DNA from: Trueperaceae bacterium
GTDB lineage: Bacteria > Deinococcota > Deinococci > Deinococcales > Trueperaceae
NCBI GenBank assembly: GCA_003556805.1
Contig: PWQI01000070.1
Coordinates: 1-38,535, forward strand
Length of the DNA: 38,535 nt
Reading direction: 5' to 3'
Below, piece by piece: positions 13,682-17,690 of this stretch. The notes beneath the pieces were generated by a model. It ran no database searches. It had not been told where the DNA came from and saw only the letters and a program-made list of their open reading frames with translations. The position numbers and the translations under genes were made by a program. The stretch's first letter is position 1, and every line of letters starts with the position of its first letter.

Positions 13682-14017
13682 ATGCGCCACGAACCATCCG
13701 AGCCGATCGACGTGCTGCGCCACGAGCAACGCCGCGCGCGCCGGCCGCACGGCACCGCCCCGATCGCGCGGCCGCGCGGTGGCTGGCGCATGCTCGCCGG
13801 TGTCGCCGTGGGCATCGCGCGCTTCGTCGGCACCGACGTGCGACTGGTGCGCGTGTTGTGGGTCGTGAGCGTGGTCCCGTCGCTCGGTATCACCGTGCTC
13901 GGCTACCTGGCGCTGTGGCTCCTGCTGCCCCTCGATACGAACGGCGGGGGCGCCGCGCTCGGCGCGGTGCCCCAGCCGCGGACACCAACCGTCGACGGAA
14001 CCGGCCGGGGCGTCTAG
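13682..14017 (+). CDS. PspC domain-containing protein
   Basis: AGVAVGIARFVGTDVRLVRVLWVVSVVPSLGITVLGYLALWLLLP; SD GAGGAGG upstream. Confidence 0.8.
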   Translation: MRHEPSEPIDVLRHEQRRARRPHGTAPIARPRGGWRMLAGVAVGIARFVGTDVRLVRVLWVVSVVPSLGITVLGYLALWLLLPLDTNGGGAALGAVPQPRTPTVDGTGRGV

Positions 14018-15567
14018 ACGACGATCCGCACTGGCGACTCGAGCAGCTCCGCCACGCGCGCCAGGAGCTGGGCGGCGTCGGACCCGTCTGCGCCCTCCCC
14101 CGACATCGTCAGGTAGGCGCGCCTGCCACCGCTGAGGGTGTCGATCAAGATGCGGCCCAGCATGAGCACCGGTGCATCGAGCTGCAGCACGGCATCGTCG
14201 ATGCCGAGCTCCGACAGGTCCGCGACCACCAGGTCGACGGTACCGTCGTCGTCGGAAGCGCCCGCCGCCATCGTCCGCTCCAGCGCCGCTACGGTGGAGG
14301 CGAAGTCGCTGGTCTCGGACACGCGCGCGCGCCGCACGTCGCCTGCGTCGATCGACGCGAGTGCCACGACCCCACCGCGCGTCGCGAGCGCCTTCTGCCC
14401 CGCCCGGAGCAAGAACGCGCCGATGGGAACGGGGGCGTCGCGGCCGAGATCGACGGCCAGGTCGGCCTGTGCGGCGACGAGCGCCGTCAGGTCGACCTGA
14501 CGGCGCCAGACGTGGCGGTGGCGCAGGAGCGGGACATCGCGGCCGATCGTGGCCTGGCCGGCATGGGGTGACGGAACCGCTACGGGCGGTGCGATCGCTC
14601 CGTCGGCCAGGCCGGCATGGAGGCCGACGTCGTCGGGTTCGTGGGTGCGCACGTGCGCGTCGTCGAGCGACGCGGCCAGGTCGGCGGGCACGTCGTCGTC
14701 CACGCCTGCGGACACGTCGCCGGCATCCACGTCGTCGCTGGGCGGCTGGTCGGCGGGCAGCGGGTCGGGGAGCACGCCGTCGCGGGCGGCGGCAGGCTCG
14801 TCGATGCTCGGTACGGCGCCCATCCCGGCGTTCGCGCCCCAGGTCGGTTCGTCATCCGTCTCGTCCCCGAGTTCGGGTCCAGATGCCCACGCGCTCGGCG
14901 CGCCGTACCCCTCGTCGTCGTCATCCGCGAAGAGCGCGGGCGGTTCGTCGCCGTCGGCCTGCCGGCTGGGACCGGCGCCGAACAGGTCGGGGAGCCCGTG
15001 ATCGCTCGCGACGTCGCTGCTCGGCGCGCTCATAGCGGCGCTGCCGACGTCGTCGCTCTCGTCGCTCGGAGCGTCGTCGCGTGGCTCCGGCTCGTCGTCG
15101 CCCTCGACCAGGAGGTCCTCTTCGAGATCGTCCATGTCGACCTCGACGGCCGGCGCTGCCGCTCGGTCGTCGCGGTCGTCCTCGCCGTCGAGCGACCCGG
15201 CATCGCTCCAGAGCAGGCCGTCGTCGTCGGACTCCACCGCGCTCTCGCGGTCGCCGTCGCCGTCGGACGAGCCTTCGTCGAAGAGGAAGATGTCGTCGTC
15301 GATCGTGGACGTGGGTTCGACCTCGTCGCGCGCCACCTCCGCCCGGCCGGCGCGGATGTCGGCGTCGGGCCAGGCCTGCATGCCCTCGGGCACGGGTTCC
15401 GGCGTGGGATCGATCGCCTCATCGCCCGCCATGACGCGCGCCAGGTACTCGAGCACGTCGCGCTCCACGACACGCCCCTCGTCGCCGCTGCCGCGCAGCC
15501 GGCGCCAATCGACGTTGTTCTCCTCGGCCAACCGCCTGGCCAGCGGTGCGATGTTGGGTTGGTCCAC
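14014..15567 (-). CDS. E3-binding (PSBD) domain protein with long acidic linker and degenerate 2-oxoacid dehydrogenase E2 acyltransferase-like C-terminal domain
   Basis: GTG at 15567 with SD AGGAGG. N-term NIAPLARRLAEENNVDWRRLRGSGDEGRVVERDVLEYLARV matches PSBD. Asp/Glu-rich middle. C-term ...LDAPVLMLGRILIDTLSGGRRAYLTMSGEGADGSDAAQLLARVAELLESP resembles the E2 C-terminus but lacks DHRxxDG. Confidence 0.75.
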   Translation of the reverse strand: MDQPNIAPLARRLAEENNVDWRRLRGSGDEGRVVERDVLEYLARVMAGDEAIDPTPEPVPEGMQAWPDADIRAGRAEVARDEVEPTSTIDDDIFLFDEGSSDGDGDRESAVESDDDGLLWSDAGSLDGEDDRDDRAAAPAVEVDMDDLEEDLLVEGDDEPEPRDDAPSDESDDVGSAAMSAPSSDVASDHGLPDLFGAGPSRQADGDEPPALFADDDDEGYGAPSAWASGPELGDETDDEPTWGANAGMGAVPSIDEPAAARDGVLPDPLPADQPPSDDVDAGDVSAGVDDDVPADLAASLDDAHVRTHEPDDVGLHAGLADGAIAPPVAVPSPHAGQATIGRDVPLLRHRHVWRRQVDLTALVAAQADLAVDLGRDAPVPIGAFLLRAGQKALATRGGVVALASIDAGDVRRARVSETSDFASTVAALERTMAAGASDDDGTVDLVVADLSELGIDDAVLQLDAPVLMLGRILIDTLSGGRRAYLTMSGEGADGSDAAQLLARVAELLESPVRIVV

Positions 15568-15686
15568 GCGCAACCTCCTGGTGTCGTGCTCGCTCCGTAC
15601 GTTCGGACAGTCTACGGAAACGGGCGCCGCCGGGGGCGCGAAGGTCCTCACTCCGCAGCCACCCGTGCGTGCTCGTCGGAGTCAGA

Positions 15687-15732
15687 CGCCCCTGACGCGG
15701 GCGGCGCGTCCGCGCCGCAGGCGTCAGGGGCG
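15687..15732. terminator. large near-perfect hairpin at the 3' end of the PASTA gene (possible bidirectional terminator)
   Basis: CGCCCCTGACGC-GG-GCGGCGCG-TC-CGCGCCGC-AG-GCGTCAGGGGCG; outer 12-bp arms and inner 8-bp arms, separated by a mismatched GG/AG. Confidence 0.5.
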
Positions 15733-16980
15733 CCAGGCTTGGAAGAAGCTCCCGTTGATGAAGGTCTGCAGGAGCGGTTCGTCGCCCTCGATGCGGATCG
15801 ACGTCACCACACCCTCGCCGGCCGCCAACTCGCGATCGAGCACGGTTCGCTCCCCGTCAGCGTCGCTGACGACGAGCGTGAGCCGGTACGGTTCGCGCGT
15901 CAGCGACGCGACGCCGACCTGGCTCGGGTCGAAGCGGAACGGTATGAGCCGGCTCCCGTCGGCCTGCATCGTGGTCGTCCCGGGCGCGGGGACGTCGGGT
16001 TCTGCCGGTGGTGCGCTGGTGTCCCCGGGGACGACCCGGTCGAAGGCGAACGGCTCCCGCTCGAGATCCCGTTGGATGACGTCTTGTACGGGTCCGTTGA
16101 CAACCAGGGCCACGGGGCTGCCGACGACGGTATAGCCGGCGGGACGGACCTCGAGCACCCCGGCGGGGCGTGTCGGGTCGTCGACGAGCCGCACCGGACC
16201 GAGCGCGAGCTGGGCCGCCCGGATCGCCAACTGCGCCTGCCACAACGGTTGTCCCTCGACCTGCGGGACGCGGACCACGCGCGTGCCCTCCAGCGCGTAC
16301 ACGAGCGTCACGGGGGTGCTGGGCATCACCTCGGAGCCGGCCACCGGACGTTGATCGGTGACGGTGTTCGGGCGATCGAAGCTCAGGTCGGCGGCCACGG
16401 CGTCGACGCGCCTGACGCCGGCCTCGGTGAGCGCCGCACGCGCCTCTTCGAGGGTCATGCCCCGCACGTCGGGGAGATCGATCGGGTTGCCGTCCATCCC
16501 CCGGCTCACCTCGATCGTGAGCGCCTCGCCCTGATCCAACAGGCTGCCGGCCTCCGGGCGTTGGGCGACCACCAACCCGACCGGTCGGTCGGTGCTGACG
16601 TACACGACCCGCTCCACGCCGATCGCGAGGTCGGCGGCACGCGCCAACGCATCGCGCTCGGGCAGGCCGACCAGCGTCGGGACCTGCCTTGCCTCGGCGC
16701 CGGCGTTCACGCCCAGACTGACGGTCCGGCCGCCGCGCACCACGCTGCCGCTCGGCGGCGTCTGCGACACGACGGTCCCCGGCGCGGCGGCGGCGTCTAG
16801 ATCGGGGTACGTGAGCACGCGCAACCCCTCGGCCCGGAGCCGTTCGGTCGCGTCGGCGTACGGCACGCCACGCACGTCCGGCAGGCGCACGTCGGCGACG
16901 CTGAGGTAGTCGGCCGTGGTGAGCGCGGCTGCGACGACGAGTCCGGCGGCCGCGAACACGAGCACCACGATGCGAATCAT
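15724..16980 (-). CDS. PASTA domain-containing protein (single N-terminal TM, multiple PASTA repeats, no kinase domain)
   Basis: MIRIVVLVFAAAGLVVAAALTTADYLS TM segment; repeated PDVRGVPYADATERLRAEGL..., VPTLVGLPERDALARAADL..., LPDVRGMTLEEARAALTEAGV..., VPQVEGQPLWQAQLAIRAAQL.... Confidence 0.85.
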   Translation of the reverse strand: MIRIVVLVFAAAGLVVAAALTTADYLSVADVRLPDVRGVPYADATERLRAEGLRVLTYPDLDAAAAPGTVVSQTPPSGSVVRGGRTVSLGVNAGAEARQVPTLVGLPERDALARAADLAIGVERVVYVSTDRPVGLVVAQRPEAGSLLDQGEALTIEVSRGMDGNPIDLPDVRGMTLEEARAALTEAGVRRVDAVAADLSFDRPNTVTDQRPVAGSEVMPSTPVTLVYALEGTRVVRVPQVEGQPLWQAQLAIRAAQLALGPVRLVDDPTRPAGVLEVRPAGYTVVGSPVALVVNGPVQDVIQRDLEREPFAFDRVVPGDTSAPPAEPDVPAPGTTTMQADGSRLIPFRFDPSQVGVASLTREPYRLTLVVSDADGERTVLDRELAAGEGVVTSIRIEGDEPLLQTFINGSFFQAWRP

Positions 16981-17069
16981 GCCTGCAACGGTAGCACGCA
17001 CCTCGCCGCAGTCCCGACGTCGAGACAGCACACACACGGCTGATCCGAGTGCCGGTAGCATGCGCGATC

Positions 17070-17690
17070 ATGGCTGCGATCGCCCCCCACCTGGTCTGGC
17101 CCCCCGCATACGAGCCCGATGAGCACAGCGAGATCGCGTGGCTGTTGCGCGCCGAGCGCGCCGGCGTGCCGGTGGCCCCGATGGTGGTGGTGCCGACGGA
17201 CGTCGAGACCGGGTTCTACGCCCTCAACAACCTGCCGGAGCAGTTGCTGCGCCTGTTCGACGGCGTGGCGGGAGACGACCCCGACGAGGACGATCTCGAA
17301 GAGATCGCGCCCCACGCGCGCGAGTTGGTGCGCGGCCGCGCGCTGCTCGACGAGGTGGTCGAGCGCCTCTACGAGGCCTTCGCCACGCTGCCGGAGCACG
17401 TCGTGGTACGCCGCGAGGGCGCGGACGGCGTGGCGACCTGGCGCGGCCGCGACGCCCTCCTGGCACTCAAGCGCATCTGGGCCGACGACTGGGAGGTCGA
17501 CGCGATCGCGACGCGGTTGCGCGCCGGGCACGGCCTGGCGCCCCGCGGCCAGAGCGTGCTGGTCCACGACGCGCTGCTGACACGCTCGCGCGAACCGCTC
17601 GGCTTCGGGCCGGCCGGCGCGGCGGTCGACGCCTGGAGCGATCGGGCGGGGCGACTCGCGCGGCTACGGCTGGTCGACGACGCGCGCTGA
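17070..17690 (+). CDS. conserved-looking hypothetical protein (weak resemblance to the N-terminus of PEP synthase/PPDK-type ATP-grasp proteins)
   Basis: MAAIAPHLVWPPAYEPDEHSEIAWLLRAERAGVPVAPMVVVPTDVETGFYALNNLPEQLLRLFDG...; ATG 8 nt after TAGCAT. Confidence 0.6.
   Translation: MAAIAPHLVWPPAYEPDEHSEIAWLLRAERAGVPVAPMVVVPTDVETGFYALNNLPEQLLRLFDGVAGDDPDEDDLEEIAPHARELVRGRALLDEVVERLYEAFATLPEHVVVRREGADGVATWRGRDALLALKRIWADDWEVDAIATRLRAGHGLAPRGQSVLVHDALLTRSREPLGFGPAGAAVDAWSDRAGRLARLRLVDDAR

Follow-up and report, generated by a model that had tools for sequence, protein, structure and literature searches.

Within the window, i.e., the whole stretch of 38,535 nucleotides of Trueperaceae DNA that was analysed (contig PWQI01000070.1), a gene located at 14014-15567 had been singled out by a first-pass annotation, which gave its coordinates correctly and left its strand, the minus strand, unstated. 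The gene and the features that could be assigned to it and to its upstream flank are the following:

14014..15567, minus strand: gene of the family described here, 517 aa, GTG start (open frame and translation; orthologues across the phylum)
14017..14511, minus strand: E2-like domain without catalytic motif, residues 353-517 (AlphaFold, Foldseek, hhalign)
14083..14103, minus strand: site of the lost DHRxxDG motif, here SGEGADG, residues 489-495 (alignment to the phylum's E2s)
14512..15363, minus strand: acidic low-complexity linker, residues 69-352 (translation; composition, shuffled controls; dN/dS 0.50-0.75)
15364..15450, minus strand: conserved residues 40-68, ARVMAGDE...PTPEPVPEGMQAWP, which extend PSBD helix 2 and include a Pro-rich stretch (alignment)
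15451..15552, minus strand: PSBD (E3-binding domain), residues 6-39 (Pfam PF02817; the genome search gives the same place)
15574..15579, minus strand: ribosome-binding site AGGAGG, 6 nt ahead of the GTG (read in the sequence)
15689..15730, no strand assigned: long inverted repeat, rich in G+C, where the upstream PASTA gene ends (read in the sequence)

An alternative start further upstream in the same open frame would give a product of 545 aa, but the 517 aa start is preferred because AGGAGG precedes the GTG at 15567 by 6 nt and because homology begins at this GTG. The product of the neighbouring gene (15724-16980, minus strand) has three PASTA domains and lacks a kinase domain, and the inverted repeat at the end of this gene possibly functions as a terminator. 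Divergent from the PASTA gene, an uncharacterised conserved gene follows (17049-17690, plus strand), the product of which gave a sub-threshold match to PPDK_N (E 4.8e-4).

The N-terminal E3-binding domain, proposed earlier by inspection of the translation, was identified by the Pfam model E3_binding (PF02817) with E=2.7e-11 and 43.9 bits, as compared to a curated cut-off of 23.7. In the stretch that follows the domain (residues 40-68 of the window protein), one M and one G are invariant in the alignment of relatives. Within the head itself E139, N141, W145 and E159 were found to be invariant among 72 distinct family sequences, whereby the numbering is taken to be that of the B. stearothermophilus PSBD, to which the heads were aligned; the phylum's E2s mostly possess R, L/H, I/L/P and V/K/A at these positions. 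As a further difference, the net charge of helix 1 averages 0.0 in the family versus +1.6 in the phylum's E2s, meaning that the basic patch is neutralised, and the net charge of the entire PSBD averages -1.3 versus +1.2. Charged helix-1 residues were described to form an electrostatic zipper with E3 (PMC9974300; PMC6270654), and an Arg beside the loop glycine was reported to be universally preserved among the eukaryotic PSBDs compared (PMC10156792). This Arg is present in 21/58 family heads as compared to 23/23 E2s. R135/R136 are found in most family members according to the alignment, the window copy itself retains both the RR pair and the loop Arg, and in the Deinococcus ficus homologue the basic residues R135, R136 and R156 have been lost.

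Helix 2 carries a pattern of its own: 57/58 heads possess Leu at Asp+2, and 58/58 have a hydrophobic residue at Asp+5 as well as Gly at Asp+11. This pattern is rare in the phylum's E2s (2/17, 6/12 and 1/9, respectively). In animals and fungi, helix-2 Leu/hydrophobic/Gly motifs were reported as distinguishing E3BP from E2, and the offsets found here are those given for animals (PMC10156792); the Ile of the published GxI is absent after the helix-2 Gly of the family. As human E2b possesses part of this pattern, too, the likeness to E3BP is suggestive only. The human E2b head, carrying M at position 139 and N at position 141, is at the same time the nearest PDB match to the family head, and its structure (3rnm) is deposited as a complex with E3. 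In a PSBD tree the family groups together with no E2 inside, the support being just 0.40. Judged by these residue and charge patterns, the family PSBD is different from ordinary E2 heads.

The C-terminal domain, comprising the last ~165 residues, has no match in Pfam or NCBIfam, and a PF00198 profile search of the own genome retrieved other E2 genes only and missed the family protein. A PDB sequence-profile search with the domain returned only a mitochondrial ribosomal protein at chance level, which was rejected as a candidate. The AlphaFold model, built on an alignment of 39 relatives, reached a pLDDT of 90.4 and a pTM of 0.85, and its Foldseek matches are headed by E2 catalytic cores (best 4.9e-10, TM about 0.7); lower down come the human E3BP model and chloramphenicol acetyltransferase, an enzyme which also has the E2 acyltransferase fold. 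Alignment of the C-domain profile with the phylum's true E2s by hhalign gave 6.9e-8, as compared to 0.014 for the best of 60 column-shuffled controls and 0.63 for the reversed control, so the E2 acyltransferase-like fold claimed in the first-pass annotation lies far outside the shuffled range. The Thermus version of the domain is more diverged, with E2 cores still being its top match (2.6e-5). About 30 residues at the start of the E2 core are missing from the family C-domain, and as a consequence it is uncertain whether the domain forms the trimers known from E2 cores.

The motif DHRxxDG is missing in every family C-domain aligned, the respective segment consisting of SG and variable residues and being shorter than in E2s, while it is kept in 24/24 full-length non-family PSBD proteins (true E2s) of nine genomes. 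The true-E2 set was itself selected by the DHRxxDG pattern and was checked against the PSBD-protein list of the same nine genomes, whereby a 66-residue fragment (L153) was the only non-family PSBD protein missed by the selection. Loss of the catalytic motif, first noticed in the window copy, holds true for all lineages aligned. A lipoyl domain, already reported as lacking, was found in the window protein by neither Pfam nor NCBIfam, and there is no room for it N-terminal to the PSBD. On the basis of model and alignments, the C-domain is best described as an E2 fold lacking the catalytic motif, the loss appearing general in the sampled lineages. The three points on which the first-pass annotation had staked its reading came out in its favour: the C-domain matches the fold, the PSBD match is significant and the catalytic motif is not retained in aligned orthologues.

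The two folded domains are connected by the linker, which was correctly recognised as Asp/Glu-rich and of low complexity; its family-wide composition is E 14.9%, A 14.6%, P 11.8% and D 11.3%. Relatives differ widely in linker length (about 97 to 1194 residues), and a very long acidic linker accounts for the 1435 residues of one family member (L066, 4741-9045). The window linker contains short acidic-hydrophobic patches (DDDIFLFD, VEVDMDDLEEDLLVEG), and such patches were identified in 33/49 linkers, whereas 300 shuffles gave 9 on average and 16 at most. The strict motif FELDLDDL occurs in only 13/59 linkers, the looser alternating patterns being the enriched ones. This suggests short binding motifs within the linker and argues against a pure entropic spacer, one of the two roles the first-pass annotation had considered; for the other, a DNA mimic, nothing was found in support.

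Selection acts differently on the three parts. In the head, dN/dS amounts to 0.09-0.18 when compared to three more distant relatives, and the closest relative has an identical head at the protein level. For the linker, the three distant comparisons gave 0.57-0.75 and the closest one 0.50; for the C-domain, the corresponding values are 0.38-0.65 and 0.19. Constraint is highest on the head, where purifying selection is strongest. In Truepera-type members the head is retained and the E2-like domain is exchanged for coiled-coil-like sequence, as would be expected if the C-domain only oligomerises. Examples of this stretch, ending in RPRWKFWG or KRPWWLVRS, were found in L040 (3001-4035, minus strand) and L065 (8863-9819).

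The family head was found in 99/111 Deinococcota genomes and the C-domain in 97/111, whereby some of the misses come from fragmented assemblies that do contain the other half. The genus Deinococcus is represented only by a plasmid copy, that of D. ficus, no chromosome of the genus being identified among the genomes covered. When 84,980 species were scanned, strong family matches were confined to Deinococcota, bar two metagenome bins. These are contigs labelled Roseiflexus and Bipolaricaulota (L073, L084) with Thermaceae-type copies, which probably are misbinned metagenome contigs, and the weaker matches in other phyla probably are ordinary E2s. A literature search, which covered few subscription papers, retrieved no account of any such protein from Deinococcota. 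The proposal of a conserved but undescribed non-catalytic E2 derivative is supported.

As had been stated, E2 and E3 genes are not found nearby: both full-length E2 genes of the own genome, as well as its four genes of E3 type (Pyr_redox_dim), reside on contigs other than that of the window (C45). In the genomes checked, two or three true E2s exist beside the family member. The PASTA gene adjoins the family gene in all Trueperaceae loci with enough flank, and PASTA, UbiX and IspD are its neighbours in this family of bacteria. In Thermus an aminopeptidase-like gene and uvrB, and in some Deinococcales an initiation-factor-3-like gene, take these places (names read by eye from the sequences). Operon logic was considered as a clue to the role of the protein and abandoned, as the gene neighbourhood changes from family to family and points to no pathway; since the PASTA/UbiX/IspD synteny is confined to Trueperaceae, the neighbours say little about the family as a whole. 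Likewise, co-loss with dehydrogenase complexes was considered and no dependence was seen, because genomes lacking a family match still have PSBD genes, nearly all of which encode the catalytic motif.

A number of related proteins were encountered. Three Deinococcales genomes (L021, 454-1731; L022, 905-2185; L023, 444-1850) encode a second protein with an inactive E2-like C-domain and without PSBD, which possesses its own conserved N-terminus (DFLDPDHFESEV...FLNW) and could co-oligomerise with the family. In a genome of the Trueperaceae genus g7 without family match, a 379-residue protein (L174, 922-2058, minus strand) combines a lipoyl domain (ETDKAVMEIEAP) with a PSBD in which Ala takes the place of the loop Arg; its short tail is only weakly E2-like and lacks DHRxxDG, and the layout resembles that of E3BP. 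In another g7 genome a diverged PSBD frame (L188, 1402-3090, minus strand) appears to follow directly upon a PASTA gene, the syntenic place of the family. Finally, contig C260 of the own genome holds a short frame with IDHDVVDG (L046, 1432-1749, minus strand), which aligns with the final portion of the E2 catalytic model (E 7e-5) and is not a normal E2.

Among known systems, inactive E2 paralogues are familiar from eukaryotes. The family shares with E2 (PF00198, PF02817 and lipoyl domain) the order of a PSBD followed by a domain of E2 fold and differs from it by the lack of lipoyl domain and DHRxxDG and by being invisible to PF00198. The eukaryotic E3BP, also termed PDHX or protein X, likewise combines PSBD, linker and inactive E2-like domain; it possesses a lipoyl domain and the domain topology of E2 and was described as a eukaryotic gene (PMC10156792), whereas the family is bacterial, has a truncated E2 fold and a long acidic linker, and possesses neither a lipoyl domain nor, in many members, the Arg next to the loop glycine. 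The layout of the family is E3BP-like, but the missing lipoyl domain sets it apart from both E2 and E3BP, and the missing catalytic motif from E2. A further analogue is MRPS36/KGD4 of the eukaryotic oxoglutarate dehydrogenase, also a proposed non-catalytic adaptor linked to PSBD function, which replaces the PSBD and was reported to be without prokaryotic orthologues (PMC9974300); unlike MRPS36, the family retains the PSBD itself. The D. ficus homologue (WP_027462895.1), which belongs to the family by sequence and by its ending, is annotated in RefSeq as 'E3 binding domain-containing protein', a name that covers the PSBD only and leaves the E2-like domain unrecognised.

Considering these data, the family is suggested to be a non-catalytic adaptor, i.e., a phylum-specific paralogue of the 2-oxoacid dehydrogenase E2 with a mostly non-standard partner interface, a reading to which we assign a probability of roughly 0.55. 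A structural adaptor rather than an enzyme is most likely because both the catalytic site and the lipoyl arm were lost, while a docking head on an acidic tether was kept. Here, the C-domain would serve only to oligomerise the protein, thereby presenting several PSBD heads on long tethers, each head would bind one conserved partner via a surface unlike the basic patch that E2 uses for E3/E1, and the acidic-hydrophobic patches of the linker may recruit a second partner. The specific work would most likely be done by the head, with the C-domain holding the copies together. Going further, the E2 chassis may have been recruited outside the 2-oxoacid dehydrogenases, with a PSBD re-tooled to a new conserved partner and a linker carrying recruitment motifs, hence forming a phylum-wide scaffold; this extended version is tentative and we would put it at somewhat below even odds.

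The first-pass annotation had left the choice between a scaffold or regulator that could dock E3 or an E2 core and a repurposed PSBD with another partner. Of the former, the non-catalytic E2 derivative stands, and standard E3 docking is weakened by the helix-1 charge, the loop Arg (21/58) and the D. ficus losses, so that, from the residues, docking of E3 in the standard mode is probably not to be expected. A repurposed PSBD fits better, with the E3BP-like helix-2 pattern keeping E3 in play as a partner; E3 binding also retains some probability, as R135/R136 are mostly kept and the human E2b head is the nearest PDB match.

A bacterial counterpart of E3BP, in which the inactive E2-like domain either joins the E2 core or decorates it, with E3 being recruited by the PSBD, has to be weighed as the strongest rival, and is regarded as unlikely. 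It would account for PSBD, linker and inactive E2 domain occurring in the same order, for the helix-2 pattern in 57-58/58 heads that is rare in the phylum's E2s, and for R135/R136 in most members, but it meets with the absent lipoyl domain, the reportedly universal loop-glycine Arg in only 21/58 heads, the neutralised helix-1 charge, the loss of R135, R136 and R156 in the D. ficus copy, the Truepera-type coiled coil in place of a core-joining domain, and E2s that persist in genomes without family match. Far less probable is a PSBD fold that has acquired a nucleic-acid-binding or regulatory role, in which case the linker would act as DNA mimic or autoinhibitor: PSBD-like folds are known in DNA-binding proteins such as Lsr2 and the linker is strongly acidic, but the head is net negative (mean -1.3), Pfam and NCBIfam gave no DNA-binding family match and E2 heads are the nearest structures. 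A decaying E2 pseudogene without present function, which would explain the joint loss of lipoyl domain and catalytic motif, can practically be dismissed, being contradicted by phylum-wide conservation, by purifying selection on both folded domains and by family matches free of internal stops.

If the adaptor reading of the family holds true, inactive, lipoyl-less E2 derivatives occurring phylum-wide in bacteria would mean that the E2 chassis became a scaffold independently. Thermus and Deinococcus would be tractable systems for PSBD partners other than E1 and E3, and Thermus PSBDs are already represented in the PDB by experimental structures (2eq7, 2eq8, 2eq9).
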